From a virus: 28,913 bases of DNA. Position 1 is the stretch's first letter. Each line of letters starts with the position of its first letter. The notes under the pieces are model-generated. The model saw only the letters and a program-made list of their open reading frames with translations, was not told where the DNA came from and searched no databases. Both the position numbers and the translations under genes were made by a program. Where the stretch lies: positions 1 through 28,913 of the IMG/VR virus record IMGVR_UViG_3300020474_001254, one strand, 5' to 3'. Positions 5,794 to 28,053 of this stretch are shown here, in pieces.

Positions 5794-6869
5794 TCAACAT
5801 AATTTCACCAATTAATTCATTAGGGTATGGAATCGCTGGTCTTAATATCACCAAGCATTTAACAAAGACTACTGATGTGTCTCTATGGCCTATAGGAAAT
5901 CCAGAATGCAGAAATGAAGAAGATATCAGAATACTTTCAAATTGCATACACAATGCTTCTAAACCCGTTTTCGATGCGCCATGTGTTAGAATCTGGCATC
6001 AAAACGACATGTCTATGTTTGTGGGAAATGGAGAAAGAATAGGTTTTCCATTTTTTGAATTAAATAAATTCAATGATGTAGAGAAGCATCACTTAAATTC
6101 TTTAGATAGACTTTTCGTTTCATCTTGTTGGGCCAAAGATGTTGCAGAACAAAATCTTTCTATTAATGCGGATAAAATTAGCGTAGTTAATTTAGGGGTT
6201 GATCCATCAATATTTAGCTCATCGTCTCACCCAAACCTAGAAGGTCGCAAAACAGTATTCTTCAATTGTGGAAAATGGGAAATTAGAAAAGGTCATGATA
6301 TATTAGTAAACTTATTTAATAACGCTTTTGAAAAAGATGATGATGTAGAGTTGTGGATGATGACAAGAAATCCATTTTTGTCTGAGCAAGAAGATAGTGC
6401 TTGGAGGAAGTTGTACTCTAATTCTAAATTAGGCGACAAGATTAAGTTTATTGATCGTGTCGCTACCCACGAAGAGGTGTATAATATTATGGCTAAAGCA
6501 GACTGTGGAGTGTTTCCATCCAAAGCAGAGGGGTGGAATTTAGAATTGCTAGAAATGTTAGCGTGTGGAAAATCTGTTATAACAACAAATTATTCAGCTC
6601 ACACTGAGTTTTGTACAAATGAAAACTCATATTTAACAGATATCAAAAAGGAAGAAATAGCTTTTGATGGCAAATGGTTCAATGGCAAATTGGGAGATTG
6701 GGCAAAGATAGATCAAGACAACCAAGACGAGATGATTGCCCACATGAGAGAAGTGCATAAGCTAAAGAGCAATGGAGAGCTAAAGATCAACAATAAAGGA
6801 ATTGAAACAGCCAAAAAACTCACTTGGGATAACTCTGCCTCTCAAATCAAAAAGATATTAAATGTTTAA
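5790..6869 (+). CDS. Glycosyltransferase family 4 (GT-B fold)
   Basis: This 359-aa protein is a clear GT4-type enzyme. The N-terminal Rossmann half begins MINIISPINSLGYGIAGLNI. The donor half has GKWEIRKG (161-168), then VFPSKAE227GWNLELLE235MLACG, which carries the EX7E motif, then KSVITTNYSAHTEF. The architecture and length match bacterial retaining glycosyltransferases. ATG 5790 is preferred to GTG 5781: AAGGAG lies 8 bases upstream, and the ATG overlaps the TGA of the preceding gene, typical of translational coupling. It is the third glycosyltransferase in the first 7 kb, so these enzymes may act in sequence. The substrate is unknown. Confidence 0.85.
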   Translation: MINIISPINSLGYGIAGLNITKHLTKTTDVSLWPIGNPECRNEEDIRILSNCIHNASKPVFDAPCVRIWHQNDMSMFVGNGERIGFPFFELNKFNDVEKHHLNSLDRLFVSSCWAKDVAEQNLSINADKISVVNLGVDPSIFSSSSHPNLEGRKTVFFNCGKWEIRKGHDILVNLFNNAFEKDDDVELWMMTRNPFLSEQEDSAWRKLYSNSKLGDKIKFIDRVATHEEVYNIMAKADCGVFPSKAEGWNLELLEMLACGKSVITTNYSAHTEFCTNENSYLTDIKKEEIAFDGKWFNGKLGDWAKIDQDNQDEMIAHMREVHKLKSNGELKINNKGIETAKKLTWDNSASQIKKILNV

Positions 6870-9739: not shown

Positions 9740-10663
9740 ATGTTTAGAAATCCGCGAGATTTACTACAAGCCTATACAGATGGGCTTGTTGGGTCATGGT
9801 GCGACCCTGAAGACACCGATAAATTGCTAGGAGAGCTGCCACACCCACTGTTTGGTTTGGCGGCTTCTGACTTGTACAGTACGGGCGAAGGCAAAGTTGC
9901 TTTGTTATATAAGTCTGTGCAAAAATTTGACCCTACCTTTGGAGCGCATGAGAGACAAACTACAGGAGACTGTGTTTCACACGCAACTCGTAACGCTGTA
10001 GACATTACTCGTTCTCATGAAATTATTGGTGGAGGTCAAGCTGAAAGTTTTGAAGCTCGGGGTGCGACAGAAGCTATCTATGGTTCTCGCGGTCATGGTG
10101 GACAAGGAATGTCATGCTCTGTCGCTGCCCGTTTCGTTCACCAGAACGGTGGAATACTATTAAGAAAAGATTACGGTTTTATAGACTTATCTACCTATAA
10201 TAGTAGGACAGGTACTAATTGGGGGAGATCGGGTGTTCCTAAAGAAGTAAAAGCTGAAGGCAAAAAACATCAAGTTAAAACTCTGAGTCTTGTCAAATCT
10301 GTAGATGAGGCCAGAGATGCTATTGCCAACGGGTATGCTTTAAGTGTCTGTAGTAATTATGGATTTTCCTCAAAACGAGATAAAAATGGCATAGCTCGAA
10401 AAAGTGGTTCATGGAATCACGCGATGTCATGGATTTCCGTGGACGATTCTAGAGAAATATATGATGAAACTTTATTTTTAATACAAAATAGTTGGGGAGC
10501 ATTCAACGGGGGTCCAAAAAGATTTGAACAACCAGACGGAAGTTTTTGGGTTAGAGAGCGTGATGCTGCTGGAATGTTAAATCAAAATGGTGCTTGGGCG
10601 TTTAGCGATGTTGATGGTTTTCCACCCAGAAAAGTTGATTGGACTATAGACGAGGTATTCTAA
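9740..10663 (+). CDS. Papain-like cysteine peptidase (family C1)
   Basis: This 307-aa protein carries the papain-type catalytic residues in order: Cys78 in TTGDCVSHA (with Gln73 near the oxyanion-hole position), His227 in SWNHAMSWISVDD and Asn250 in LIQNSWGAFN. The NSWG motif is a C1 hallmark. Papain-like peptidases cleave proteins, so a role in virion maturation, host-surface digestion or lysis is possible. There is no signal peptide or visible propeptide. It follows the small membrane protein by 6 bases and ends in a TAATG overlap with the first giant fibre gene, so it belongs to the same operon. A cell-wall target has not been shown and is not assumed. Confidence 0.82.
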   Translation: MFRNPRDLLQAYTDGLVGSWCDPEDTDKLLGELPHPLFGLAASDLYSTGEGKVALLYKSVQKFDPTFGAHERQTTGDCVSHATRNAVDITRSHEIIGGGQAESFEARGATEAIYGSRGHGGQGMSCSVAARFVHQNGGILLRKDYGFIDLSTYNSRTGTNWGRSGVPKEVKAEGKKHQVKTLSLVKSVDEARDAIANGYALSVCSNYGFSSKRDKNGIARKSGSWNHAMSWISVDDSREIYDETLFLIQNSWGAFNGGPKRFEQPDGSFWVRERDAAGMLNQNGAWAFSDVDGFPPRKVDWTIDEVF

Positions 10664-13600
10664 TGACATGTAGGAATTCCTATGGGACTATTAAGTTCAT
10701 GCGAGGGAGATATGCAGATTTCTTTAATGAAAATCCGGTTCTTAAGCTGGGTCAATTGGCTTACACTATAGACAAAGATTCTAATCCCGCAAGCTCAAGT
10801 TTCGGAAAACATGTTCTTAAAATAGGTGACGGCTCGACACCTTGGAAAGATCTTCCATTCGCAACCCCTAACGAGCCATGTGTCTTGAATCCAACCACAA
10901 CTCCACCCCCTGTAACAACAAGCACAACGACAACAACAGCTGCTCCAGCGTCATCTGTTTGGCAACTAACTATAGTAACCACTCAAGCTAACCAAAACTT
11001 TTCTGTTATGCTTGGCAAGTTTTTTCCCAGTAGCGTAACAACGCCAGATCTTCAAATTGATTGGGGAGATGGAACTATTGCTCAGTATACGACCGAGGGT
11101 ATCCATCAACACACATACGCAAATGTTGGCACATATTACTTAAAACTAAGTGGAACATTTACTTCTACTGACGCTAGAGAAAGCATTAGGTTTGGCAATG
11201 GTTTTTCAGAAGCTGGATTGGTAGTAGCAACAAGCAAGATACCAGAAATACTACACGCTGATGGTTCTACTGGTTTACAGAGCGTAAGAAGAACTTTTGA
11301 AGATTGCATAAATCTTACAAGTGTTCCAGCAGATCTGTTTGAACGTTATCAGGCTATAGACAGAGGCGGTAAATCTATTGATTTCTCGTTATGTTTTTAT
11401 AAATCTGGCCTAACTTCAATACCACCAACTCTTTTCTCAGGTATTACTAAAAATATTGATTTGTTTGGGACTTTTGGTAATTGCCCATTAACTTCTCTTC
11501 CAGTTAATTTGTTTAATGACAAAGTTGTAGCACTTGTAGCAACGTTTCAAGGCTCCAGCATAACAAGCATACCTCAAGGATTTTTTGATCAATGTACTAA
11601 TCTGACAACTTTAGATTTAACTTTTGATGGATGTTCAAATTTAACGACTATTCCCGTTGATTTATTCAAACTCTCAACAAAAATAAGAAATTTTAGCAAA
11701 ACTTTTAGAAAATGTCATGCTCTCACTTCCATACCAGCAAATTTATTCCCAACGACTTTAAACGAAATAGGTTGGGGTCAATCCATTGGTTTTGATGAAT
11801 TATTTGATGGCATTGAAACAACGCCCGGAGACAGATCAACACAAACAAATATACTAAGTACAGCAGATTATTCTAGGTTGTTGGGCGAAATGAAAGCCTT
11901 AGCAGTCGCTAACACGTTGCAGGGTATGCACCTATACGTAGCGAATACGCAATACACATTAGCAGCAAAAGCTGATCGGGACATATTAACCGGGACTTGG
12001 GGATGGACTATATTAGATGGAGGTTTAGAGCCATCAACGATCACTGGATGCACTAATACACCAGATTTCACGGCATTGACAACGAATGAATTTATAAGTG
12101 ATATAGATTATGGTCCTAACAGCAGTAATACAACTTCTACTACTGGTGGTCTGCAAGGTGTAGCTATTTCAGCAAAAGGAAATAGGGTGGTATGTGGAGC
12201 AACGGGAAGTCCCGATGGATGTGGAACAGCACAAGTTTATTCTTACAGATCAGATGTTAGTGGTAATAATATTGAATATAGAGAGTTGGGAGATAGCATT
12301 AAGGCAGCGATCACTGATTGGGAATCATTAGGAGCCAAAAATGTAGCCATATCATCAGATGGTAGCACGTTGGCTATAGATTTTCCCGACGAGCCAAGAG
12401 TCGGCTGGGCTGGCGGTGGAGAAAATGGAAGTGTACGTATTTACAGGTTAGATGAATCCCAAGGTGCTTTTCAAGAAAGTTGGGTTCTGAGCGCTATAAT
12501 TACGGGTCAAGGATTTGTTCCAAATTTACGTTTTGGTGCGGGAGGCATTTCTCTCTCTGCCAACGGAGATAGGATAGCAATAGCTAGTGAGTTTGGAGAG
12601 CAAGTTAAAGTTTTCCAAAGACGACCCGCAGGAGACTACATACAACTTGGAACCAACATTGGTACTATGTTAAGCACTGACCCAAATGATCATGAATACA
12701 ACAGAATCGGCAGACGTTCGCTATCTGAAGATGGAAACACACTTCACTACATTCACGCTCAAGGATGTTCGCAGAGAGTTTCGCAAGTGTTCAAATTCGA
12801 CGGAACTGATTGGAACATATTCAACTCTATAACCTCTCAACAGACAGACCATCTAGTGATGTCTAGAAATGGCACTCGGATAGCTTATTCTATGGTTGCA
12901 AGAGACGCAAATTGTCTCCCTCCTTCAGATGCAAACGTTCTGCGAGTCAGGGACATGGCACCCAACAGTACTAGTGCCGGAAGTATTGATGTTGACGGTG
13001 GTTCTATTACTTTAAATGATCATGATAATAACTATATACTTAAATTCGCAATGTCTGAAGATGGAAAAACCATAGCTGTAATTCAAGTAAGAAAAAATAC
13101 AGACCCAGAATGGTCAGGACCAAACGATGTTGGCAGTAAAGTAACTGTATATCGAGCGTCTACGGATAGCTTCGGAGGCATTAGTACTTCATGGGTCCAA
13201 ATTGGATGCCCAATAAAAAACTCTTTTATATGGGAAGACATAGACATTAGTGAAGATGGTAATTTAATTGCTTTGGTAGACAAATCATCTAACTCTAATA
13301 AGGGTAGAGTAATGGTATATGGTTACGATGATTCTACCCCAGATACACTTCCTGAACAAGAGATTTCCTTTACGTGGAAAATAGCAGGAAATTCCCAATA
13401 CTTCAAAAATGATGGCACTATCAGAAGACAATCTTTATCTCCATATGGAAATATAGGCGACGGCATTCTTATAGACGCTGAAGGAAAAAATATATTAACT
13501 AGATCCTACGATTACACAACAGCCTCTCCAAAACCACAACCAATTTTCTGGATAAGTAGAGAAGGTCAAAAATCAGATTTCTCTTTCACTGACACGTTTG

Positions 13601-15273
13601 ATGATTTCTACGCAATGCATCCTCCTTGGAATGACGGTATATATTCTGACGCAATTTTTGATCAATACAAACAGAATGGCAGTTTTCCCCTCGATTTTAC
13701 AACAACCCTTCCCGGTCAAAGTTATAATGCAGATCAAGCTGACAACTGGAGTCTGATGCCTAGTTACCTAACTGATCTAGACTCACAGATGTCCTTTGTG
13801 GGTACTGGTGTCAGCAAGATAGCCATTTTTCCAGAAGGGACTTATGAAGGAGCCAGAGTTCCTTACTATAGAGAAGCAAATTATACTGGAGGCATTGTTG
13901 AAAAACCTAATTATGATACTAATTATATTCATCACTTTATAAAAGGTAGTATGTTCGGTGTTCGCGCTAATTCATTCAGCGATGCTTATAACACAGATGG
14001 TAACAGGCTATGGCTAGTAACTGGAGTGAGTGCGGCGATGGTAAAAGAACAAAATCACACTAGTTGTTTTGTGCTAAAAAGACTGAAGAAACTCTATTGG
14101 CCTCCGTATGATACTATGAGTCCGAGAAACGGTTACGTTACAACGTGGAGTATTACAGAGCATAGGTGGGACCATAATAATCCTAACGAAGTTAATTACC
14201 CAACAGGCACAAATCAAGTTGGGCATCTGTCGGGATCAATAACAGTCACACCTGATCCAGATGAGAAAGAAGACTACGAAGACCTCACTTACAACACGGG
14301 GTCTTATGGTTTATATGACCAAGACTCTTACGTTGGCGGCATGTTACAAATAGAACCAATCTCATCTGCCTGTTTCTTTGTGAGATGGCTAGACAATAAT
14401 AATTCAACAGGCAAACAAATCCCAGTACTAAAAAAATATTGCCGAGGCGTAGCGGGTTCAGGTCCGACACCTTGGAGTTTTGTTGGAAATACTAATATAC
14501 CCATAAGAGGCGGTTATGATCCAGTAACTTCTCCAGATGGTGCAGACAACATTAAGTTTAAGATAGCAAATTATGGGAAAACTGTGCTAACCGTAGAAAA
14601 TATAAGAGGAATGAGAGGGACTAGTATTTCTCTATATGAATGTCCAGCAGTCACCTCAAACCAATACGTATTAATGCCTCAGATCAACACACTTCTCAGG
14701 GTTACAGCCAATAAAGATTTTGGAGATAACGTTGGTGGCGGTAATATAGTATCCAACTGGACAATACAGGCTCTTGATATAAGTCCAATGGGCGATGTAA
14801 TAGCCGTAACCGTTACTGATAGCTCTTGGGCAGATGATCTCGTAACCCAAAGAGAAACTCACCCTTTCGTAAGAAAAGTCAAAGTGTATGTATTTAAACA
14901 AACTACAATAGATGATAACAGTAGTTGGACTCTAAAAACTACACTTACTAGAAAGTTTGCAGGCTCGCGCTCTGTCACCGCCCCCGTGGTAAACCCGACA
15001 GACCCCAACCCCCTGTGGGAGACGCAACAAAACGGTCAAGTTGAAAGTCAGGGAACAATTGTTAAAAATTGGTACGAGGCGTTTGGAACCTCATTATCAC
15101 TTAGTAATGGTGGCAGGTACTTAGCTGTAGGAGATCACAAGGCTTTCGCAAACGCCCCTAGCTCTTCCTCTAATCCTAGATTAAGTTGGCAAAAAGCCTC
15201 AGACCTTAAGCCGTATACAGGTGAGATAACAGTGTATGATTTAACTAAGGTTTTAGATTTACCACCAGAGTAA
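10663..15273 (+). CDS. Giant tail-fibre-like protein: Mtd_N-type N-terminus, PKD-like, LRR and beta-propeller-like modules (1536 aa)
   Basis: ATG 10663 overlaps the peptidase stop (TAATG) with GAGG 7 bases upstream; the TTG at 10639 is not needed. Residues 1-65 resemble the N-terminal domain of phage major tropism determinant proteins (R..YADFFNENPVL...G...YT...LKIGDGSTPWKDLP), also present in three proteins further right. A Thr/Pro linker follows (78-96), then a PKD-like strand (DWGDGTI, about 133-166). Six leucine-rich-type repeats (about 211-365) follow the pattern F..C..LTSIP..LF. Seven or so beta-propeller-type repeats follow (about 496-890, pattern ISxDGxxxAI.. then VxVY). The rest to 1360 is unrecognised, and 1400-1530 again shows propeller-type blades. 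This is probably a distal adhesin or receptor-binding fibre; the target is unknown. Confidence 0.78.
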   Translation: MTCRNSYGTIKFMRGRYADFFNENPVLKLGQLAYTIDKDSNPASSSFGKHVLKIGDGSTPWKDLPFATPNEPCVLNPTTTPPPVTTSTTTTTAAPASSVWQLTIVTTQANQNFSVMLGKFFPSSVTTPDLQIDWGDGTIAQYTTEGIHQHTYANVGTYYLKLSGTFTSTDARESIRFGNGFSEAGLVVATSKIPEILHADGSTGLQSVRRTFEDCINLTSVPADLFERYQAIDRGGKSIDFSLCFYKSGLTSIPPTLFSGITKNIDLFGTFGNCPLTSLPVNLFNDKVVALVATFQGSSITSIPQGFFDQCTNLTTLDLTFDGCSNLTTIPVDLFKLSTKIRNFSKTFRKCHALTSIPANLFPTTLNEIGWGQSIGFDELFDGIETTPGDRSTQTNILSTADYSRLLGEMKALAVANTLQGMHLYVANTQYTLAAKADRDILTGTWGWTILDGGLEPSTITGCTNTPDFTALTTNEFISDIDYGPNSSNTTSTTGGLQGVAISAKGNRVVCGATGSPDGCGTAQVYSYRSDVSGNNIEYRELGDSIKAAITDWESLGAKNVAISSDGSTLAIDFPDEPRVGWAGGGENGSVRIYRLDESQGAFQESWVLSAIITGQGFVPNLRFGAGGISLSANGDRIAIASEFGEQVKVFQRRPAGDYIQLGTNIGTMLSTDPNDHEYNRIGRRSLSEDGNTLHYIHAQGCSQRVSQVFKFDGTDWNIFNSITSQQTDHLVMSRNGTRIAYSMVARDANCLPPSDANVLRVRDMAPNSTSAGSIDVDGGSITLNDHDNNYILKFAMSEDGKTIAVIQVRKNTDPEWSGPNDVGSKVTVYRASTDSFGGISTSWVQIGCPIKNSFIWEDIDISEDGNLIALVDKSSNSNKGRVMVYGYDDSTPDTLPEQEISFTWKIAGNSQYFKNDGTIRRQSLSPYGNIGDGILIDAEGKNILTRSYDYTTASPKPQPIFWISREGQKSDFSFTDTFDDFYAMHPPWNDGIYSDAIFDQYKQNGSFPLDFTTTLPGQSYNADQADNWSLMPSYLTDLDSQMSFVGTGVSKIAIFPEGTYEGARVPYYREANYTGGIVEKPNYDTNYIHHFIKGSMFGVRANSFSDAYNTDGNRLWLVTGVSAAMVKEQNHTSCFVLKRLKKLYWPPYDTMSPRNGYVTTWSITEHRWDHNNPNEVNYPTGTNQVGHLSGSITVTPDPDEKEDYEDLTYNTGSYGLYDQDSYVGGMLQIEPISSACFFVRWLDNNNSTGKQIPVLKKYCRGVAGSGPTPWSFVGNTNIPIRGGYDPVTSPDGADNIKFKIANYGKTVLTVENIRGMRGTSISLYECPAVTSNQYVLMPQINTLLRVTANKDFGDNVGGGNIVSNWTIQALDISPMGDVIAVTVTDSSWADDLVTQRETHPFVRKVKVYVFKQTTIDDNSSWTLKTTLTRKFAGSRSVTAPVVNPTDPNPLWETQQNGQVESQGTIVKNWYEAFGTSLSLSNGGRYLAVGDHKAFANAPSSSSNPRLSWQKASDLKPYTGEITVYDLTKVLDLPPE

Positions 15274-15278
15274 TAATT

Positions 15279-16187
15279 ATGACTTGTAATTTTGAACACA
15301 TACAAATTAAAAGAGGGACTTATGCTGGCTTTGAGACAGCTAATCCTATTTTAAAGGATGGAGAACCATCTTACACAATACTAGATACTACTCCTATAAT
15401 TAAAATTGGAGATGGCGTAACAAACTGGAAGGATCTTCCGTGCTTTGTTGTTGATGGTACTAATTGCGATGTAACAACAACTACAACTCGCAATCCAGAA
15501 GAACCACCGCCTCCAAATTCAGACGAATGCGATCCCATGATGTGCGTTGCATTTATAGATGAATCTGATTCTACGTCAGTTCAGCAAAACGGAGATTTTT
15601 TCAATAAAATGCTTGAAATTTTCCCCAATAGACTTTGTTTTGTTTTCTGTGCGTCATTTGATGCTAACCGTCCAATGTCCTCAACTAAATATTGGGACCA
15701 TATGAGCCAGCCTTTTAAATCTGGCAAGACTCAGAGATATTTTGACACATACCACAATCTATTAGGCACTGACAGACAACAATATAGAATCACCCCAAAA
15801 GATAGAAGTAACAGTCAAAATGATTGGCGGGAAAGTGGAGGCGCATGGTATGACATAAACACCATGATTGACAATGCAGACCCATCTATAAGAGAAATTT
15901 TTAACCAGTGTACTCAGATGGCAATATTTATAGATGGCTCAGGATCAACCATTCTGCAAGACTTCACAAAGGCTAGAGACCAACTGATAACAGACGCAGC
16001 GACAGAAAGACAGATTAAAAATGTAGCCGCTATATCTAACCACAGAGAGAATGCTGCATGTCCATTTTGTCAACCAGAGTGCTGTGGAGTTATTCAAACA
16101 GAAGAATTACTAGATAAATATAATCAACTAAAATTAGAATGTTCAAGTTCAACAGGTTCAACATATCCAGAATGCGAATTAGAATAA
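15279..16187 (+). CDS. Fibre-type protein with Mtd_N-like N-terminus and a vWA/MIDAS-like domain (302 aa)
   Basis: Residues 1-55 are the same N-terminal domain as in the neighbouring giant protein (YAGFETANPILKDGEPSYTI, then IKIGDGVTNWKDLP). A Thr/Pro linker covers about 66-80. The rest looks like a von Willebrand factor A domain: MCVAFIDESDSTS carries D94-x-S96-x-S98, the MIDAS motif at the end of strand 1. MAIFIDGSGSTILQDFT (204-220) has the strand-4 'IDG' and a second DxSxS (209-213). The C-terminus has a Cys cluster (CPFCQPECC, 261-269). vWA domains bind ligands through a metal ion, so it may act as a receptor- or partner-binding adhesin. It sits 5 bases after the first giant gene and 10 before the second. 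Confidence 0.72.
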   Translation: MTCNFEHIQIKRGTYAGFETANPILKDGEPSYTILDTTPIIKIGDGVTNWKDLPCFVVDGTNCDVTTTTTRNPEEPPPPNSDECDPMMCVAFIDESDSTSVQQNGDFFNKMLEIFPNRLCFVFCASFDANRPMSSTKYWDHMSQPFKSGKTQRYFDTYHNLLGTDRQQYRITPKDRSNSQNDWRESGGAWYDINTMIDNADPSIREIFNQCTQMAIFIDGSGSTILQDFTKARDQLITDAATERQIKNVAAISNHRENAACPFCQPECCGVIQTEELLDKYNQLKLECSSSTGSTYPECELE

Positions 16188-16197
16188 GGGTATAGAC

Positions 16198-19100
16198 ATG
16201 TCAGCAAGTTGGGAACACGTAAAAGTTAGAACAACAGATTACTTTTCAATGAAAAGAATCAATCCCGTTTTGAAAGACGGGGAAATAGTATATACTAGAG
16301 ATGTTGCAAATAACTTGAATTATATAAAAATTGGAGATGGCTCAACAAATTGGATGGATTTGCCCTGCCTTCACATTAGTAGCGGAACCACTCCAGCACC
16401 AACAACTACTACTTTACCACCAACTTGTTTTACTAATACTATTTCTGAATATACAAAAGGAATTCCTGCTGATTTAAGTACTCTAGGCAATGTTTTTAGT
16501 AGCGGAACGGTAGATATTATTGGTTCTTCTTTTGATCGTAAATTTTCTTTTGAAGAACACGATACATCCAAATCAGTATTTAAAACGCCATACCAGCCTT
16601 TTGTGAGGATAGGCGATTTAATATCAAGTTTTACAAACATCAAAAGAATAAGCATGTCTGATGATGGTAATAGAGTTGCGATTGGAGATGCTAACGGAGG
16701 AACTAGCAATGCAGGAGAAGTAAAAGTATTTGAATGGAATGCTTCATCTTGGACGACGATTGCTACATATAACGGAACATCTAGTGGCGATAAGTTATGT
16801 GACTGTAAGCTTTCAAAAGATGGTAAGTACTTAATTATGGGTACTGATAGGAGATGTGTTGGAGATGGATACATTCAAGTAAAAAGCTTATCAGGCAGCA
16901 CTCAGAATAGAGATACAACTATAACCTTTGATATTGTTTCTTCAGACGCTTCTTTTGACAGCAAGGTTGGACCATGTGCCATAAATTGGGATGGTACTAT
17001 TTTAGCTGTAGGAGCAATAGGTGATGACGCAGTAATGCCAAACACTCCAAGGGGTATTGTAAAAATATACAAATGGGATGGTTCAAGCTGGAGTAACACT
17101 CACACAATGACCCAAAGCAACATGCAAGATGGATTCACTAATTCGTCAGATGTAAATGATTGTTTTGGAAAAGAAATAGAATTATCCTACGATGGTAGGT
17201 TCGTTATAATACTAGCTCCTAACATTTTAATGGTGAACAATGACGGAACATTTAATAGACAATCAGCCTTACATGTAGTAGAAATTATTGGAACTCAAGG
17301 TCAAATAGTGACCGATCATGGCTCTATTGATAGTATTTCGGGTTTAGGTAGCTCCTCCTACTTGGGACTAAGACATCAAATAGAGGGAAATTCAATTTGT
17401 GTTAATTGGGGAAATGATGTCCTCGACGCGGGGGTAGAAAATAATGCCGGTAATATAGTTCATCCCAAAATGAGAGTTGGTTGGTCTCAGACCGGACCTA
17501 CACCATCGGACTCTGGACATTTTATGCTATTCCATCAGATACGGAGGCCATCAGACTTAAATAAAAGAGAACTTGCTCGTCCTTGGCCTACTATTTCTGG
17601 TGACTCAAATTTTGGATCATCATGCGCAATAGGATATAGTGGTTCGTATGTTGCTGTAGGTTCTAAGGGGCAGAATGGTTTTGCTCAAATATATAGAAAT
17701 AGCGGACATTTGAATCATATTCTTCCCCATCGTCCGTGGCTTGATGTTACTGGAAAAGTAATTAATTCAGTCAGTTCGTCTGTAGATTTTGGAAAGTCCA
17801 TAGCAGTAGATAGCGGGGTTACAAAGATCGCCATTGCTTCTCAATCTGATGCATTAGTGATGGGTTCTGGAGATCCACCCTCACCATACTATTCCTATTA
17901 TCGTGTTGCGTCTAATAAAATAGAACAGGATGCAGATTACACATTAGCTTTCGATCCATTCCAAAGCTCTGGAACAATTTCTGTTTTTGCAAGTGGTAGT
18001 CAAACCCTACCACCTAAAACTTTAATAGAAAGTTTTCACACTAGTGGAACAAACCAAGCGTTTGATTCTAGCACTAAGACATTTGGCTCGGGAGCTTTGC
18101 ATACAGCAATCACCAAGCCTAGTGGATATACAATATTAGCATTTAAGATAGAAGAAAGAAGTTCTAGCCCTACTAATTACATTCCAACTTCTCACCTAGA
18201 GCTATCTTCTGATCTAGCTGTTCTAAAATCAAATTATAGTAAAACAATACCACTCATACAAGAAGATCATACTTTTGCTTTTGGCATGACTCCAAACGGT
18301 CAATTTAGAAAAACAAAAATAACATCTTCTTTTGAGCCAGATGCTATGCCTATGTTCTCTTTAGGTAATAACATAACATTTCCATATCTTTCAGGAGAAT
18401 TGTCTGCTTATTTAGTAGATGCTACAGCAGGCTCAGGTCAAATACTATTGCATCAAAATAATACTAGTAACTATATACTCTCCGATAGGTTTTTAATTAA
18501 TAACATATTTACAACCCTAAATCATCTTAAAGTACAGATTAGTAGGTTTAATAAAAATTATACAATGTATGTGGACGATAAGAGAGTCAAATTTAATGAT
18601 AGCACATTGTCTTCATTGTCTATAGATGGATCTGGAGTAGATCAAAACATAATTGTTGGCGGGGTCGCTTACAGTGGGAATCATTTCTTTAAAGGGACTA
18701 TGGAAGGTTTTAAGTTCGATAGAAGTTGTGAACCATCTGTACTAACTAATTTAGGAACTGGCAGCACAGTTGCAAGCAATGTTGCTAGCCGCAGTTTAAA
18801 GGTAGAAGGAAATCTTGACTATAGGCCGTGGCTAAGAAATAATATCAAAGATAAAAATTCAGTTGGATTTGTTAGATACAGTATGTCATATCCAAACAAA
18901 TATATACAACCTAATGTTGGTTTTGAAATAAATCATCAAAACTTTGTAACTCCTCATATGGTTTCTGGGACAGCTGGACTTGGAGATGATCATAATCATC
19001 TTATAACAAAAGAATATGGGCTTTATCAAACATACAACGGCTCTGACATAGGCACGGGTGGGACAGGTTTTAGTACGGGTGAAGATACATGTATAATGGT

Positions 19101-20781
19101 TCCAGATCATTTTCTTGGTTGGGACCCAGTTACTGGACAGCCTATATTTGGCCCAAGTCTTCAATGCATAAACGATTCAGCATTTAAAAATAATCAATTT
19201 TACCCCGGATCTGGACTGCATAAAGACGAGGGCATTAATGTAATAAAATTTAGAATGGCTATGGAAACTTCCAATCAAAGAAAAGTAAAAAAAATAGAAT
19301 TAAACGTTTGGGATGATGCGTATCAAATTATTCCAGAAAATTCTGGATTACCACTTGAAGCTAGTGGTATGCTTTCTTTGACTACTGACGATCCATTAAG
19401 CACTTGGACCCATTCTTCTAATAACGAAATATTTTACTGTAATAGTGGTATTAAAACTTCTGGAGTTCAGTTTACAGCAAATGGCCCTGTGTTTGTATCC
19501 ACCTACGGTAGTCCCTCACTTTATGCCGATGAAGCACAAGCAGTGATTGAAAGAGATGACCTTCCTTGGATAAGCGGAGTAAATATTTGGTCCTCTCAAT
19601 TCGCTATGTTCAATGGTGACAGACTTGTGTTCAAAGAACCAACAGTGATGGGCGGTGCAACTGAGCAAAGAATCACTGTTGGTGAAAGCCCAATGCATGG
19701 AACAAGATTATTTTTATTAAATAAGTTTACAGGAAAGACAGACCCAGCGGAAGATGAAAACGATCCAGACGCTGAGTATACTTTTCAGTTAGTAAACGGA
19801 GAAGGGGACACCGACAATGACAGGTTTGCATTTAAATTTCATACGATAGGAACTGACACTTACGTAGACAAAAGTATGAATGTTCCAAGGTTAGACCTAA
19901 TAAACCAAGCAGGGCTAACTAATGGACAAGTTCTTAGTGTTAGAGTGAGAGTACATGCTCCTCACAATTCTACTCTAGTTTTAGCAGAAAATGCAATAAA
20001 ATTCAGAGTTATAGATACAAGTATTGGTCCTAACAAAAACTTGCCTTTGCCTACGTTTCCTACATACGATAATATACCACCCTCTTCCGTGATATCTTCA
20101 GATGATAATTTTGCTCATGCTGTAGGCTATCCGATGTTTATAACTACCGGACAGTATAACTATGCTGGATATGCCCTACAAGCTTTTGTCTGTAAGCCAG
20201 CACCAATCACTAGGTCGTGGACACATCCCAATAGTTTGTTAATAATAGAAAAAAGAGCTAACTCGGGAGAGCCTTGGAGTCTTGCTGGCATAAAACAGCA
20301 GCACGAAACAAGCATGTACGCATATTTAGATTTTCCACAAAATTATCATATCGAGGGCGTTTCAACAAATAGTTTTAGCGACATATGCAGAAGTGAACTA
20401 TATAGAGCTGCTAACGGGTCAATAAATACAGATCCTACATGTACGGAGCTTCAATATAGAATGTATTGGTGCGATGGAGTTCCTTCTGGTTGGGCAACTC
20501 CAATGAAAAAAGCTTTCATAGAAGGCGAGGCCGCCGGGAGTAGTTTTTCATCTCGCCCAACAAATAAAGGTTTAGGAACTGCAAGGTATATGCCTTCTGG
20601 AATAGCCTTTAAACCAGTTGGACCGCTAGGTTCAGGTAGTCCAATATACACGCCAATAACTGAGCTTGCACCTCCGTGGCAAGGCTCATGCCCCAAACAA
20701 GATTCAGAATTACGGGAGCCTCATAAATATCGAGGTAGACCTAAGTTAGAAGACAGAGTACTATTTGTGAGCTTTGATTAA
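16198..20781 (+). CDS. Giant tail-fibre-like protein: Mtd_N-type N-terminus, beta-propeller-like and LamG-like modules (1527 aa)
   Basis: The N-terminal domain (about 1-58) again has YFSMKRINPVLKDGEIVYT, then YIKIGDGSTNWMDLP, then a Thr/Pro linker (63-75). Propeller-type repeats lie at about 145-600: ISMSDDGNRVAIG, LSKDGKYLIMG, INWDGTILAVG, LSYDGRFVIIL, each followed by a V.V/IY strand. A jelly-roll region (about 685-845) reads like a LamG/concanavalin domain: LNHLKVQISRFNKNYTMYVD, then a final GTMEGFKF. The part after 850 is strand-rich and unrecognised. The domain set differs from the first giant protein (no LRR) although length and organisation are alike. It probably binds host surface glycan or protein. 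It is not split or frameshifted. Confidence 0.76.
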   Translation: MSASWEHVKVRTTDYFSMKRINPVLKDGEIVYTRDVANNLNYIKIGDGSTNWMDLPCLHISSGTTPAPTTTTLPPTCFTNTISEYTKGIPADLSTLGNVFSSGTVDIIGSSFDRKFSFEEHDTSKSVFKTPYQPFVRIGDLISSFTNIKRISMSDDGNRVAIGDANGGTSNAGEVKVFEWNASSWTTIATYNGTSSGDKLCDCKLSKDGKYLIMGTDRRCVGDGYIQVKSLSGSTQNRDTTITFDIVSSDASFDSKVGPCAINWDGTILAVGAIGDDAVMPNTPRGIVKIYKWDGSSWSNTHTMTQSNMQDGFTNSSDVNDCFGKEIELSYDGRFVIILAPNILMVNNDGTFNRQSALHVVEIIGTQGQIVTDHGSIDSISGLGSSSYLGLRHQIEGNSICVNWGNDVLDAGVENNAGNIVHPKMRVGWSQTGPTPSDSGHFMLFHQIRRPSDLNKRELARPWPTISGDSNFGSSCAIGYSGSYVAVGSKGQNGFAQIYRNSGHLNHILPHRPWLDVTGKVINSVSSSVDFGKSIAVDSGVTKIAIASQSDALVMGSGDPPSPYYSYYRVASNKIEQDADYTLAFDPFQSSGTISVFASGSQTLPPKTLIESFHTSGTNQAFDSSTKTFGSGALHTAITKPSGYTILAFKIEERSSSPTNYIPTSHLELSSDLAVLKSNYSKTIPLIQEDHTFAFGMTPNGQFRKTKITSSFEPDAMPMFSLGNNITFPYLSGELSAYLVDATAGSGQILLHQNNTSNYILSDRFLINNIFTTLNHLKVQISRFNKNYTMYVDDKRVKFNDSTLSSLSIDGSGVDQNIIVGGVAYSGNHFFKGTMEGFKFDRSCEPSVLTNLGTGSTVASNVASRSLKVEGNLDYRPWLRNNIKDKNSVGFVRYSMSYPNKYIQPNVGFEINHQNFVTPHMVSGTAGLGDDHNHLITKEYGLYQTYNGSDIGTGGTGFSTGEDTCIMVPDHFLGWDPVTGQPIFGPSLQCINDSAFKNNQFYPGSGLHKDEGINVIKFRMAMETSNQRKVKKIELNVWDDAYQIIPENSGLPLEASGMLSLTTDDPLSTWTHSSNNEIFYCNSGIKTSGVQFTANGPVFVSTYGSPSLYADEAQAVIERDDLPWISGVNIWSSQFAMFNGDRLVFKEPTVMGGATEQRITVGESPMHGTRLFLLNKFTGKTDPAEDENDPDAEYTFQLVNGEGDTDNDRFAFKFHTIGTDTYVDKSMNVPRLDLINQAGLTNGQVLSVRVRVHAPHNSTLVLAENAIKFRVIDTSIGPNKNLPLPTFPTYDNIPPSSVISSDDNFAHAVGYPMFITTGQYNYAGYALQAFVCKPAPITRSWTHPNSLLIIEKRANSGEPWSLAGIKQQHETSMYAYLDFPQNYHIEGVSTNSFSDICRSELYRAANGSINTDPTCTELQYRMYWCDGVPSGWATPMKKAFIEGEAAGSSFSSRPTNKGLGTARYMPSGIAFKPVGPLGSGSPIYTPITELAPPWQGSCPKQDSELREPHKYRGRPKLEDRVLFVSFD

Positions 20782-20793
20782 AAGAGGAATATA

Positions 20794-22146
20794 ATGAACA
20801 AACAGTTTCTAGATTTAATTAATAAATATGATCTTACTGGAATAGGATTTTCACGCAAAGTTACAAATGATATTCAATCAAAAAATCCTTGCGTTACTTT
20901 TAGTGTCAAATCTAAAAAACCAACAACAGAATTAAATGAACAAGAAATTATACCGACATCTATTGAAATCAATGGTATAGAGTACATAACAGATGTTATT
21001 GAACAACAGCAAATAGAATTAGTTGCGTGTGGCAGCAATAACGATAATTATCAAAATTTCTTTCCCATAGAAATGGATTGGCAAAGGACATCTCATAGAC
21101 CTCTTGTTGGAGGTTTATCCATAGCTAATTTCTGGGACTCGTTCATGTATACCGGAACTATGGGACAGCTCTGTATTGACGAAAGAGATGGCTCTGTTGT
21201 AGGACTAACAAATGCCCACGTTAGCAATGCTACTCAAATGATTGTTACAGATCCTTTAGATAATACTATGACACAACCTAAGTTCTATACAACGTATAAC
21301 AAAGACATAGTACAACCCTCTCCCTCTGATGCTCAAAGGTATTATGATAATGTACCAAAAAGACAAGAATATTTGTCACAAAGCGGAATAGGTGTTGTGA
21401 AAAGATACTGGCCCGTAATTAGTAGTGGTAACACAATAGACGCTGCCTTAATATCAATCAAAAACGATAACACTTTAGTAGACAACACAGACGCAAACAG
21501 TAGATCAAGAGCTTTTAGTATTAAGCATATTGGTGAAACCTTGATACCGTGGGCCACACCCGCTCAAATGGCACAGCTAGAAACTGACTTTATGGCAGGA
21601 TCTAGTATATATGTAACAAAATCTGGAAGGTCTACTGGAATTACAGGGTCTGGATATCAGGCTGGAAGTTGTCCTGTAACAATACAAAGTATTAATTATG
21701 CTTTTCCTTTACCTTTAAATAATCTGTATGAAAGAATAGTGGCTTATGAAGATACTTTTAGATTTAGATATACAGATACTGCCACCTACGCACACGCACC
21801 TCTAGATGGTGGAGATTCTGGCTCAGTCCTTGTAACTGATTATTTTGACTCTACTAATGGTGGAAGTGGAACGGTTATTGGATTAAATTTTGCTGGCAAT
21901 GGATACAATCTTGATGCAATCTCTTGCAAAATAACCAATGTTGCCAGCATATTAAACGTTAGGGGTGCTACTCTGACAGACACATCAAGCTCGCTGAAAT
22001 TTGGAAATCCACAAAATTGGAACTATATAGCAGCAGAACATTCAGACAAGATTTTCCAAAGTACCAACGTAGACCTAGCTACATCAGGTTATATTATGGT
22101 AAGCGGAAAGAAATATTGGCAAATTGGAAATATTCCAAAGCCCTAG
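20794..22146 (+). CDS. Chymotrypsin-fold serine protease, NAL1-like (450 aa)
   Basis: This protein has a complete catalytic triad. His142 is in GLTNAHV, Asp216 in TIDAALISI and Ser342 in LDGGDSGSVLV. The region RPLVGGLSIANFWDSFMYTG before the His and the VGLTNAHV strand match the NAL1-type trypsin-like proteases found in bacteria and plants (pattern RP..GG.Si......aGT.G....d..G....L.N.HV). The family cleaves proteins; its physiological substrate in phages is unknown. There is no signal peptide or Mtd_N domain. It follows the second giant gene by 12 bases with AGAGGAA as ribosome site. It may be virion-borne, clearing host surface proteins or processing the fibres, which is inference. Confidence 0.8.
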   Translation: MNKQFLDLINKYDLTGIGFSRKVTNDIQSKNPCVTFSVKSKKPTTELNEQEIIPTSIEINGIEYITDVIEQQQIELVACGSNNDNYQNFFPIEMDWQRTSHRPLVGGLSIANFWDSFMYTGTMGQLCIDERDGSVVGLTNAHVSNATQMIVTDPLDNTMTQPKFYTTYNKDIVQPSPSDAQRYYDNVPKRQEYLSQSGIGVVKRYWPVISSGNTIDAALISIKNDNTLVDNTDANSRSRAFSIKHIGETLIPWATPAQMAQLETDFMAGSSIYVTKSGRSTGITGSGYQAGSCPVTIQSINYAFPLPLNNLYERIVAYEDTFRFRYTDTATYAHAPLDGGDSGSVLVTDYFDSTNGGSGTVIGLNFAGNGYNLDAISCKITNVASILNVRGATLTDTSSSLKFGNPQNWNYIAAEHSDKIFQSTNVDLATSGYIMVSGKKYWQIGNIPKP

Positions 22147-22193
22147 AAAGTGTATAGTATTACGTAGCAAAACCTTTATTTTGGAGAATAATA

Positions 22194-22478
22194 ATGTCAG
22201 ACTTCTCAAGAACACGCATACAGCTGAGAAGAGATACCGCTTCTCAATTTAGCTCAACTAACCCGCAGCTGGGAGAGGGAGAACCCTCTTACGATAAAAC
22301 AAAAAAAACACTTAGAGTTGGTGATGGAACTACTAACTGGAGTTCATTGCCAAACTCTGTTATTTCTGATACAACTGGACTGACTGCAAGTGGCGTACAT
22401 AATATTGTCATTATGACTACAGCTAACTATAATGCTTTGGGTTCAAAAGATCCTAATACTATTTATTATGTGGTGTAA
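22194..22478 (+). CDS. Short protein consisting mainly of the Mtd_N-like domain (94 aa)
   Basis: The start has a TTTGGAGA site. Residues 1-54 repeat the shared N-terminal domain: RIQLRRDTASQFSSTNPQLG, then GEPSYD, then LRVGDGTTNWSSLP. The rest (about 55-94) ends with YNALGSKDPNTIYYVV, a short strand pattern (Y.aL...Dp.TlYyv) often at the C-terminus of phage fibre-associated proteins. It lacks the Thr linker and large modules of its paralogues, so it could be a capping or stabilising protein for the same docking site, or a remnant of a larger gene. The reading frame is intact and begins 47 bases after the protease stop. Confidence 0.75.
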   Translation: MSDFSRTRIQLRRDTASQFSSTNPQLGEGEPSYDKTKKTLRVGDGTTNWSSLPNSVISDTTGLTASGVHNIVIMTTANYNALGSKDPNTIYYVV

Positions 22479-22481
22479 ATT

Positions 22482-22649
22482 ATGATGTCAATATTTGCTT
22501 ACGGAACTTTGCCCGTTACAGACGTTAAAAGTGGCGATACAAAAATCACTAGGATATACCACGGAGAAACTGTGTTATATGAAAACTTTGGTTCTGAGCC
22601 ACCCCAAGAAAACAAAAAAGAAGATAACGAAGAACAAACAGATAACTAA
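22482..22649 (+). CDS. Small hypothetical tail-associated protein (55 aa)
   Basis: This short frame follows the previous stop by 3 bases. It reads MMSIFAYGTLPVTDVKSGDT, then KITRIYHGETVLYE, then a charged tail rich in Glu, Lys, Asn and Gln. The V.KIY.G...vye strand resembles the C-terminal motif of phage fibre-associated proteins, so a virion role is plausible but weakly supported. Two ATGs (22482, 22485) are possible and neither has a good ribosome site; translational coupling from the previous gene is likely. Confidence 0.5.
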   Translation: MMSIFAYGTLPVTDVKSGDTKITRIYHGETVLYENFGSEPPQENKKEDNEEQTDN

Positions 22650-22666
22650 TAAACAGGAGAAATAAA

Positions 22667-22909
22667 ATGGGAGTAGTATCCACAACAGATGTAGTAACAA
22701 ATCCTAATACTACAATAGAAGCAATCACCAACGCGAGCGTAGTTTGTAGTTGTTTACCAACTGGAACGTCTCACACAATTGATACCAACACGGACAGCAA
22801 CTTCGTGAACTTTGACACAAGCCTGACATATGCAGAGCTTCAAACACTCTACACGCTCAGATTTGATGACATAGCATATTATAATGCGGTCGATGGAGGT
22901 GGCGCATGA
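22667..22909 (+). CDS. Hypothetical protein (80 aa)
   Basis: I do not recognise this protein. CAGGAGA lies upstream of the ATG. The sequence is Thr-, Asn- and Asp-rich and strand-prone in the first 50 residues (MGVVSTTDVVTNPNTTIEAI), with Cys28 and Cys30 and an acidic C-terminal half. It has no membrane segment. Its stop overlaps the next gene start (ATGA), so the two are co-translated. Composition and position suggest a minor virion protein. Confidence 0.5.
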   Translation: MGVVSTTDVVTNPNTTIEAITNASVVCSCLPTGTSHTIDTNTDSNFVNFDTSLTYAELQTLYTLRFDDIAYYNAVDGGGA

Positions 22910-24735: not shown

Positions 24736-26964
24736 ATGTATGTAAAAAAAAGAAGCGGCGAGACAGAACAATATACTGTTGAAAAAATTCATAAAGTTGT
24801 TGATTGGGCTATCAAAGACTTGAATAACGTTTCTTTATCTGAAATCGAAATGAACGCTAACCTATCCCTGCAAGATGGTATGACTACAGAAGAAATACAT
24901 AAAATTTTAATTAAGTCAGCAAACGATCTTGTATCAGAAAAAGCACCTAATTATCAATATGTAGCATCTAGGCTTTTAAATATGTCCCTACGAAAAGACT
25001 TGTGGGACAAGTATGACAAACCTCCAACATTATATCATCACATACAAAACAATGTAGAAGAACAAGTCTACGACGAAGCTATGTGGCTAAAATGGACTAG
25101 TAAAGAATTGAAAGACATTGAATCTGTAATTGATCACGATAGAGATTACTTATTCACATACGCTGGTCTTCAACAACTTATCGACAAATACTTGGTTAAA
25201 AACAGGGTGAGTGGTCAAATATATGAAACGCCTCAGTTTGCGTATATATCTATTTGTCTAGCGTTATTTGACACTGTGGAAGAAGTAAAAGAAGCTTATG
25301 AATGTTTTTCTACTCACAAAATAAATTTGCCAACACCCATCATGGCTGGCGTAAGAACAAAGATCAAACAATTTGCTAGTTGCGTTTTAGTAGATGTGGA
25401 TGATGACCTTTCATCTATTTTTTCTAGTGTTCACGCCGTTGGAAGATACACAGCTAGAAGAGCTGGCATTGGTTTGAACATTGGCAGAGTTAGGCCAATT
25501 AATTCTAGCATTCGTGGCGGTGAGGTAATTCATACAGGCATCATCCCCTATTTAAAAATATTTGAATCATCTGTAAAAGCCACAAGTCAAAACGGAATAC
25601 GTGGAGGATCTGCTACTGTACACGTTCCTTTTTGGCATCACGAAATTGAAGACATAGTTGTTTTAAAGAATAACGCAGGGACAGATGATAACCGAGTTCG
25701 CAAGTTAGACTATTCGGTTCAGTTCTGTGAGCTTTTCTATAAGAGATTGATCAATGGGGAAGATATTACACTATTTAGCCCAGCAGAAGTTCCAGACTTG
25801 TATGAGAACTTTGGCAATAATAAAGTATTTAATGAGCTATACGAAAAGTATGAAAAGGCTTGGAGTCTTAAATTCAGAAAAAAAATTCCAGCACGTAAAC
25901 TTGCAGAGGTTTTTACGAAAGAAAGATTAGAAACTGGTCGTGTCTATGTGATGAATATAGACAACGCTAATGAGCATGGATCTTGGGATACTCCCGTGTA
26001 CATGTCTAATCTGTGTCAAGAAATAATCCATCCAACTAAGCCCATAAGTTCAATAGACGATACTTCAGGAGAAATTGGTATATGTATTTTATCAGCATTA
26101 AATTTGATTGAATTACATAATGACAATGATATCCAAAAGGCTTGCAGGATGGCTGTTAGAACATTAGAGTCTGTCATAGATTATCAGGATTATCCTGTGC
26201 TAGCTGGAGAAAATTTTACAAAGAACAGAAGATCTTTAGGTATTGGTATAACAAATCTTGCTGGATACTTAGCAAAAAATAAACTAAAATACGACGATCC
26301 GAAGACTCTTAGCACCTTGCACAATCTCATGGAAAAGATACAATGGAATTTAATAAATGAGTCGTGCGTATTAGCTGAACAATACGGGTCGTGCAAAAAG
26401 TTTAACGAGACTAAATATGCTAAGGGCTTGTTGCCAATAGATTGGTATAAAAAAACAGTTGATGATCTTGTAAAACCAAAATACACAATGGATTGGGAAG
26501 GGCTAAGACAGAGAGTAAAAGAACATGGCATGAGGCACTCTACACTTACAGCCATTATGCCCTGTGAGTCCTCTAGCGTCATTCAGAACAGCACTAATGG
26601 AATAGAACCCGTAAGGAACCTATTATCATACAAAAAGGCTAAGAACGGCGTATTGAAGCAGCTAGTACCATACTATTCATCAAGAAAGAATTTTTATACA
26701 AAAGCGTGGGATATGAAAGATAATCAGGCTATGTTGAATGTTTGTGCAATTTTGCAAAAGTTTGTAGACATGAGCATCAGTGTTAACTTATATTATAACT
26801 ATGCTCATTATGAAAATGGCAATATACCATTAAGTGTGTTAATAAAAGACCAATTATACGGTTTTAAATATGGTGTCAAAAATTTTTATTACTGTAACAC
26901 ACCTGATGGCGACGGCGAAACAGAACAAGAAACAGGGTGTGAATCAGGTTCATGTGCAATTTAA
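24736..26964 (+). CDS. nrdA: Ribonucleoside-diphosphate reductase class Ia, alpha subunit
   Basis: This 742-aa protein has the full class Ia alpha layout. An N-terminal ATP-cone lies at about 1-90. The catalytic cysteines are C216 (QFASCVLV) and C450 (GEIGICILSA), and N425-L-C427-Q-E429 carries the radical-site Cys and Glu. PCESSSVIQNSTNGIEP is the substrate-phosphate loop. Tyr718/719 lie on the radical path, and the C-terminal pair C735/C740 (CESGSC) re-reduces the active site. It converts ribonucleoside diphosphates to deoxyribonucleotides with the NrdB partner just downstream. GGGGA lies before the ATG. No intron, intein or homing endonuclease interrupts it. Confidence 0.97.
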   Translation: MYVKKRSGETEQYTVEKIHKVVDWAIKDLNNVSLSEIEMNANLSLQDGMTTEEIHKILIKSANDLVSEKAPNYQYVASRLLNMSLRKDLWDKYDKPPTLYHHIQNNVEEQVYDEAMWLKWTSKELKDIESVIDHDRDYLFTYAGLQQLIDKYLVKNRVSGQIYETPQFAYISICLALFDTVEEVKEAYECFSTHKINLPTPIMAGVRTKIKQFASCVLVDVDDDLSSIFSSVHAVGRYTARRAGIGLNIGRVRPINSSIRGGEVIHTGIIPYLKIFESSVKATSQNGIRGGSATVHVPFWHHEIEDIVVLKNNAGTDDNRVRKLDYSVQFCELFYKRLINGEDITLFSPAEVPDLYENFGNNKVFNELYEKYEKAWSLKFRKKIPARKLAEVFTKERLETGRVYVMNIDNANEHGSWDTPVYMSNLCQEIIHPTKPISSIDDTSGEIGICILSALNLIELHNDNDIQKACRMAVRTLESVIDYQDYPVLAGENFTKNRRSLGIGITNLAGYLAKNKLKYDDPKTLSTLHNLMEKIQWNLINESCVLAEQYGSCKKFNETKYAKGLLPIDWYKKTVDDLVKPKYTMDWEGLRQRVKEHGMRHSTLTAIMPCESSSVIQNSTNGIEPVRNLLSYKKAKNGVLKQLVPYYSSRKNFYTKAWDMKDNQAMLNVCAILQKFVDMSISVNLYYNYAHYENGNIPLSVLIKDQLYGFKYGVKNFYYCNTPDGDGETEQETGCESGSCAI

Positions 26965-26973
26965 GAGGCAAAA

Positions 26974-28053
26974 ATGCAAACTATATTAAATAAAAAAAAC
27001 GTAGACTATCTACAGCAACCACTATTTTTAGGAGAAGACTTATCTTTGCAAAGATACGATAAGTTTAAGTATCCTGTATTTTTCGATTTATACAAAAAAC
27101 AAATGGAATTCTTTTGGAGGCCAGAAGAAATAGAATTAAAAAAAGATAGAAATGATTTTAAAAATGATGACATTATGACTCCGAATGAAAAATTTATTTT
27201 TACTTCTAATCTTAAATATCAAACAATGATGGATAGTGTTATTTGTCGTGGGGTTCCAACTCTTCAGGAATATGTTTCTAATCCAGAATTAGAAGCCTGC
27301 ATGAATGTGTGGCAATTCTTTGAACAAATACATAGCTACAGTTATACGTATATTATTAAAAACGTCTACAGTGATCCTAGCGAAGTCCTAGATAGCTGTC
27401 TAACAGATAAAGAAATTTTAAAAAGAGCAAATGTAGCTATTAAAGAATACAACTCTCTGCGTGATATAAGTGGATCGGGTAAGAAACGTGACCTTAAAAA
27501 GCAGATATATTTGACTCTAATTAGTGTAAATATACTTGAGGCAGTTAGGTTTTATGTTTCATTCATTTGTGCATTTGCCTTCGCGGAGAATAAAAAAATG
27601 ATTGGCAACGCAGACATAATCAAATTGATTAAAAGAGATGAAGCTTTGCATTTAGCCAACACTCAAGAAATACTTAAAATACTCAAGAACAATCCCAAAG
27701 AAGGATTTACTAAGATTGCAGAAGAGTGCGAAGAAGAAGCGTGTATAATGTTTGAATCTGCTGCTTCAGAAGAAAAAGCTTGGGCTTCTTACCTATTTAA
27801 AGATGGCTCCATTATTGGCTTAAATGAAACTGTAATGTCTCAATATGTAGATTGGTTGTGCGCCTCTCGCAGAAGAAATATTGGACTACCTTATGACAAA
27901 GGCTGCAAGAACCCAATACAGGGATGGACTGAACCTTGGCTTAATAGCGAGTCCGTACAGGTCGCCCCACAAGAGCATGAAATTACTTCATACAAAATAG
28001 GTGCTAGTACAAATGATTTAGAAGATACAGACTTTGGAGGTTTTGAATTATGA
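26974..28053 (+). CDS. nrdB: Ribonucleoside-diphosphate reductase class Ia, beta subunit
   Basis: This 359-aa protein has the complete di-iron and tyrosyl-radical site: Asp87 (YQTMMDSV), Glu117 and His120 (FFEQIH), Tyr124 as the radical Tyr, Glu205 (FAFAE) and Glu223/His226 (RDEALH). It makes the stable Tyr radical that starts catalysis in NrdA. The C-terminal tail ends in TDFGGFEL; the tail is what docks NrdB into NrdA. AGAGG lies before the ATG, 9 bases after nrdA. The end overlaps the dUTPase start by 4 bases. The radical Tyr and iron ligands are intact, so this is a normal class Ia beta rather than a Mn- or Phe-type variant. Confidence 0.96.
   Translation: MQTILNKKNVDYLQQPLFLGEDLSLQRYDKFKYPVFFDLYKKQMEFFWRPEEIELKKDRNDFKNDDIMTPNEKFIFTSNLKYQTMMDSVICRGVPTLQEYVSNPELEACMNVWQFFEQIHSYSYTYIIKNVYSDPSEVLDSCLTDKEILKRANVAIKEYNSLRDISGSGKKRDLKKQIYLTLISVNILEAVRFYVSFICAFAFAENKKMIGNADIIKLIKRDEALHLANTQEILKILKNNPKEGFTKIAEECEEEACIMFESAASEEKAWASYLFKDGSIIGLNETVMSQYVDWLCASRRRNIGLPYDKGCKNPIQGWTEPWLNSESVQVAPQEHEITSYKIGASTNDLEDTDFGGFEL

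Follow-up and report, generated by a model that had tools for sequence, protein, structure and literature searches.

We found that a fibre cluster of a T4-like phage encodes a serine protease of the NAL1 type and that, among the viral relatives of this protease, the gene directly upstream usually ends in a short C-terminal tag. Judged from the sequences of the loci compared, tag and protease are statistically paired across the family. We propose that the protease would be an enzymatic partner docked through this tag on the C-terminal tip of the upstream fibre, and that it would cut a host surface protein at adsorption. We consider this reading somewhat favoured, at a probability of roughly 0.55.

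A serine protease gene in a fibre cluster

The window, that is, the whole stretch of DNA that was analysed, is a 28.9-kb viral record (IMGVR_UViG_3300020474_001254, 28,913 nt). Its source is a T4-like phage, of which it is a fragment. The nearest relatives of the ribonucleotide reductase genes (24736-28053) are in T4-like phages of Synechococcus and Pelagibacter (~54% identity), and no tRNA genes were found in the record. The features that concern us are as follows.

16198..20781, + strand: giant fibre-like protein, 1527 aa, proposed protease partner (Mtd_N-like start, TTTT linker)
20752..20778, + strand: fibre C-terminal tag DRVLFVSFD, a degenerate form of the family tag (PSSM score)
20794..22146, + strand: NAL1-type serine protease P0001, 450 aa (PHROG 20754, triad, profile, fold)
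20794..21003, + strand: N-terminal domain of the protease, residues ~1-70, NAL1_N-like (HMMER alignment to NAL1; weak Pfam matches in homologues)
21217..21219, + strand: His142 codon (TNAHV)
21439..21441, + strand: Asp216 codon (NTIDAAL)
21817..21819, + strand: Ser342 codon (GGDSGS)
21964..22143, + strand: virus-specific C-terminal extension, residues ~391-450, with KKYWQIG, proposed tag dock
22194..22478, + strand: P0005, a 94-aa Mtd_N-type small tail protein, conserved downstream neighbour (PHROG tail-fibre N-terminal matches)

The protease ORF is complete, begins with ATG and is preceded by a Shine-Dalgarno-like AGAGGA. The initial annotation had described an intact His142-Asp216-Ser342 triad in a NAL1-type protease that lies between a giant fibre gene and an Mtd_N gene, and each part of this description held up. 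The three residues are at those positions, and in 47 viral homologues neither H142 nor S342 varies and D216 is conserved to at least 90%. The triad is accompanied by the motifs GTLG...H and GDSGS. PHROG 20754, annotated as 'protease', matches P0001 (E 2.3e-17) and 47 of 47 viral homologues. The 1527-aa fibre gene ends 12 bases before the protease ORF, and the 94-aa Mtd_N-type gene follows it. As judged by sequence and by the structural model described below, the gene product has a NAL1-type fold and an unbroken triad; from these we infer that it is an active serine endopeptidase.

The giant fibre has an Mtd_N-like N-terminus, a Thr-rich (TTTT) linker and a weak match to laminin-G; a search for its relatives detected none. 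The order fibre, protease, 94-aa Mtd_N-type protein and Thr-linker fibre recurs in two related contigs (L052 and L020). In the clade of the window the protease is an accessory gene, absent from 13 loci that we inspected.

The surrounding region is a hypervariable fibre cassette (~10600-22900), bounded by a papain-like gene and by the block of ribonucleotide reductase genes. The same interval is found in L010-L012, L023, L024, L027, L031, L039, L051 and L068, with a gene content that varies by phage. The papain-like gene (9740-10663, + strand) encodes a 307-aa protein with the motifs GDCVSHA, NHAMSW and QNSWG and had no Pfam or PDB matches. Because copies that are 66-69% identical are present in many protease-less relatives, we regard it as one of the core genes, next to the fibre cluster. 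The cassette also encodes a 1544-aa fibre-like protein (10639-15273, + strand) with an Mtd_N-like start, a Thr linker and a weak match to BspA-type leucine-rich repeats, and an Mtd_N-type protein (15279-16187, + strand) in which DESDST and IDGSGST may mark a von Willebrand A domain (integrin alpha-M, only at E 0.37). Upstream of the fibre cluster are two PHROG 2170 glycosyltransferase-like genes (1371-2360 and 5781-6869, + strand).

Relationship to NAL1 and to cellular proteases

NAL1 (NARROW LEAF 1) is a trypsin-like serine protease of rice and a regulator of plant development. P0001 alone gave no match in Pfam, NCBIfam or the PDB (phmmer). Since P0001 alone had no Pfam or NCBIfam match, the assignment to NAL1 is based on the family profile and on the fold. 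A profile of 47 members searched against the PDB had rice NAL1 as its first match (E 3e-8). The AF2 model of P0001 (pLDDT 82, pTM 0.88) was compared with the PDB by Foldseek, and the 34 best matches were all NAL1 (E 1.2e-15 to 1.6e-10, TM 0.5-0.7). The next fold matches after NAL1 were Streptomyces protease B and alpha-lytic protease.

The family and rice NAL1 (PDB 7y77, 8hau, 8pmg and others) share a chymotrypsin-type domain, with the motifs GTLG...TNxHV and GDSGS, and probably an N-terminal domain. They differ in that identity is ~15% and that the viral proteins add a C-terminal extension with YWQxG. The N-terminal region of the family was aligned to NAL1 by HMMER profile search; the Pfam family NAL1_N (PF25608) matched 12 of the 47 homologues weakly (best E 2.8e-4), P0001 itself being unmatched. 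The Nal1 C-terminal domain (PF25819) was matched in 1 of 47 members (E 0.061). Crystal entries of NAL1 have chain numbers in multiples of three; a trimeric fibre tip would match this, although the point is only suggestive.

Bacteria and archaea have NAL1-like proteases that are full-length homologues, including the N-domain (E down to 2e-32). These end before the viral extension, and their upstream genes are without the tag. When cellular genomes were scanned with the alignment of the viral subfamily, no homologue came up, whereas a motif pattern (GTLGC...NNHV) did find them; the cellular sample, having been picked by this pattern, is partial. In a tree, a single branch set all 47 viral sequences apart; its support was 100/100 and its length 1.5 changes per column. 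Given this long branch, and with a partial cellular sample, the viral copy is probably not a recent host gene.

Distribution among viruses

Searching from the neighbouring genes, we reached 80 related contigs; the protease was present in just two of them, L052 and L020. Iterated searches added L084-L087, then 75 loci, 79 loci (out of 211 relatives) and 46 loci; in total we examined 99 distinct proteases. With more than 200 relatives, the family is common among the contigs of uncultured viruses. In contrast, P0001 had no tblastn match among 50,697 deposited phage records, even at E 10, and neither had three canonical relatives searched against the same records. Within the reach of tblastn, the family appears to be absent from these deposited phages.

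Elsewhere, too, the neighbours of the protease are tail-fibre, tail and virion families. In several of the proteases a Thr/Pro linker joins on additional fibre-like C-terminal domains, and in L087 the fused domains are the same as those of a neighbouring fibre. L087 (1379-14538) has six tandem NAL1-like genes beside a tail-sheath-like gene. Two of the six have Thr/Pro linkers and fibre-type C-terminal domains, one is without the triad and one has a degenerate second domain.

A different viral NAL1-like form has Cys in place of Ser (GCSGS) and was seen in L278 (6752-7783), L280 (7926-8957), L279 and L281. These proteins do not have the YWQxG extension, and there was no tagged gene within 60 bases upstream.

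The gene upstream of the protease usually ends in a tag

The gene directly upstream of the protease is usually a Thr/Pro-linker fibre, and the upstream genes of different loci are often otherwise unrelated. At their C-terminal ends they share a tag with the consensus N-T-[IVL]-[FYW]-x-x-[IFY], within ~5-12 residues of the C-terminus (for example ANTIFVHIPN, NTVFMGFDIL and NTIYTHFEAL). In the discovery set, the tag was present in 28 of 43 upstream genes. Of the remaining genes of these loci 14 of 489 matched, and of the genes of relatives without the protease 8 of 996.

Because the tag was first seen post hoc, we fixed the pattern and retested it on new loci. Among newly fetched proteases, 29 of 36 upstream genes had the fixed pattern, compared to 8 of 460 others; for the strict form of the tag the counts were 24 of 36 and 0 of 460. 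When upstream genes were grouped by homology outside the tag, 39 of 47 groups were tagged in at least one member. For the homology groups of the new loci only, 9 of 14 were tagged (Fisher p 1.5e-11). The tag was found in none of 32 genes upstream of cellular homologues, and a minority of the viral upstream genes are without it.

In tandem arrays, a protease that precedes another protease is usually tagged itself, as in L087 and L181; L205 is an exception. The gap between the tagged gene and the start of the protease varied from -40 to +23 bases, indicating that the signal is in the protein. An origin of the tag at the level of DNA (a ribosome binding site or an overlap) is unlikely with spacing this variable.

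In the window itself, the fibre ends in DRVLFVSFD, which has no NT and is a weak match to the tag. By PSSM it was second of the 31 ORFs in the window, and 5 of 1004 control ORFs scored as high. With a form this degenerate, we regard the pairing as moderate in this phage, although it is strong across the family. The end of P0005, DPNTIYYVV (ending at 22478), resembles the tag and outscores that of the fibre; we take it to be a different, common tail motif.

A virus-specific extension and a predicted dock

We found that the viral proteases have a C-terminal module that their cellular homologues do not have. The cellular proteins stop near residue 390 of P0001, whereas the viral ones run ~55 residues further, to YWQxG. 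This motif was present in 81 of ~101 viral sequences and in 0 of 82 cellular ORFs. The PHROG 20754 profile, with 324 positions, also stops near residue 390 and so does not include the extension. Catalytically altered copies keep the motif: the paralogue in L087 without His, Asp and Ser retains YWQTG, and the degenerate second domain in the same locus retains WQMG. We looked for YWQxG on the non-protease proteins of these loci and found none, so its status as a general dock is unsupported.

One locus offered a natural way to model tag and protease together. In L195, the stop codon of the fibre and the start of the protease are in one frame, 6 codons apart. The read-through fusion, with the stop read as Gln, was used as the input for AF2 with 53 aligned rows. 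In the predicted structure the tag residues YTIWVH formed a beta-strand (block pLDDT 75), flanked by disordered linkers (pLDDT 36-45). A strand called by DSSP needs a partner, so the model puts the tag against the protease. A candidate partner is the long strand over YWQVG in the C-terminal part. In this fusion the tag is tethered near the N-terminus of the protease, which is a point against reading this as docking. Docking of the tag on the protease is supported by one AF2 prediction.

Taken together, the fibre tag, the virus-specific C-terminal module and the predicted beta-strand favour a protease that is physically mounted on the fibre. In the mechanism that we propose, the extreme C-terminus of the fibre would act as a short beta-strand tag to which the protease binds, probably by way of its YWQxG module or a nearby surface. 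The protease would then sit at the fibre tip, much as the adhesin gp38 sits on gp37 in T2-type phages. At adsorption the mounted enzyme would cut a protein of the host surface, and this might expose a receptor or loosen attachment. It seems an even bet that the arrangement is general, that is, that many uncultured phages mount, and even daisy-chain, serine proteases at the tips of otherwise unrelated fibres by means of a C-terminal beta-strand tag and a virus-specific dock.

Alternative functions

The initial annotation had offered two roles, cleavage of host surface proteins at entry and processing of the giant fibres. The main rival is that the tag is a substrate and that the protease trims or processes the upstream fibre during assembly. 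The strict pairing of genes would fit an enzyme and its substrate equally well as a dock, and substrates and inhibitors also bind proteases as beta-strands. However, cleavage at a site this close to the C-terminus would take off almost nothing. In addition, active tandem proteases are themselves tagged, triad-dead copies retain the YWQxG module, and several proteases are fused to fibre-like domains. We think a role in maturation unlikely.

It is less probable still that the protein is an assembly factor that acts as a chaperone on the C-terminus of the fibre and then leaves, its protease fold being incidental or used in quality control. The gp38 protein of phage T4 has a chaperone role (PMC12892980), the protease gene is directly 3' of the fibre gene, as in gp37/gp38, and some copies are catalytically dead. 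Yet the triad is kept in nearly all copies, indicating that catalysis is selected, and the fusions to linkers and extra domains suggest a part of the virion.

The six tandem copies in L087, among them the triad-less gene and the degenerate second domain, could also be explained if the NAL1 fold served mainly for binding at the fibre tip, with proteolysis as a secondary function. With His, Asp and Ser near-invariant across deeply diverged copies, we give little credence to this notion. The least credible alternative is an intracellular protease that acts on host or defence proteins and is merely located among fibre genes: no signal peptide is visible by eye in the N-terminus and the region is a hypervariable cassette, but its repeated occurrence next to tagged fibres, across many unrelated loci, and the fusions with linker domains argue against it.

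Implications and comparison with known systems

To our knowledge, the enzymes that phage virions carry for entry mostly act on sugars or on the cell wall. If a serine protease on the fibre is as widespread as we propose, then layers of protein on the host surface would commonly serve as a barrier or as a receptor. The tag, which is short, would also provide a testable rule for which fibre bears which enzyme, and would allow such systems to be recognized from sequence alone in unannotated phages.

A similar known arrangement is that of gp38 in T2-type phages (S16 and PP01), in which gp38 contacts gp37 through its N-terminus at the tip of the fibre (PMC12892980). Like the protease, which is directly downstream of a fibre in the window, L052, L020 and most other loci, this gp38 is encoded directly 3' of the fibre gene. 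Unlike the protease, gp38 is a polyglycine-II sandwich adhesin and not an enzyme, and the two are unrelated in sequence. Membership in the gp38 family is ruled out by the NAL1-type fold and the lack of a polyglycine-II sandwich. Tailspikes with an intramolecular-chaperone autoprotease have a self-cleaving C-terminal domain in the same chain; this is also ruled out, since our protease is a separate gene with a chymotrypsin/NAL1-type catalytic domain.

In the literature searched, with subscription journals mostly outside the search, we found no description of a NAL1-type fibre protease of a phage, in agreement with the initial annotation, which knew of none characterised. A virion-associated peptidase that acts on a host surface polypeptide is known from the Bacillus phage PhiNIT1, a poly-gamma-glutamate hydrolase (PMC5380687). 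Its substrate is capsular poly-gamma-glutamate, and the passage on the enzyme describes no pairing with a fibre tag (PMC5380687). The type of enzyme is known, whereas its proposed use on fibres and its pairing with a tag appear to be new.
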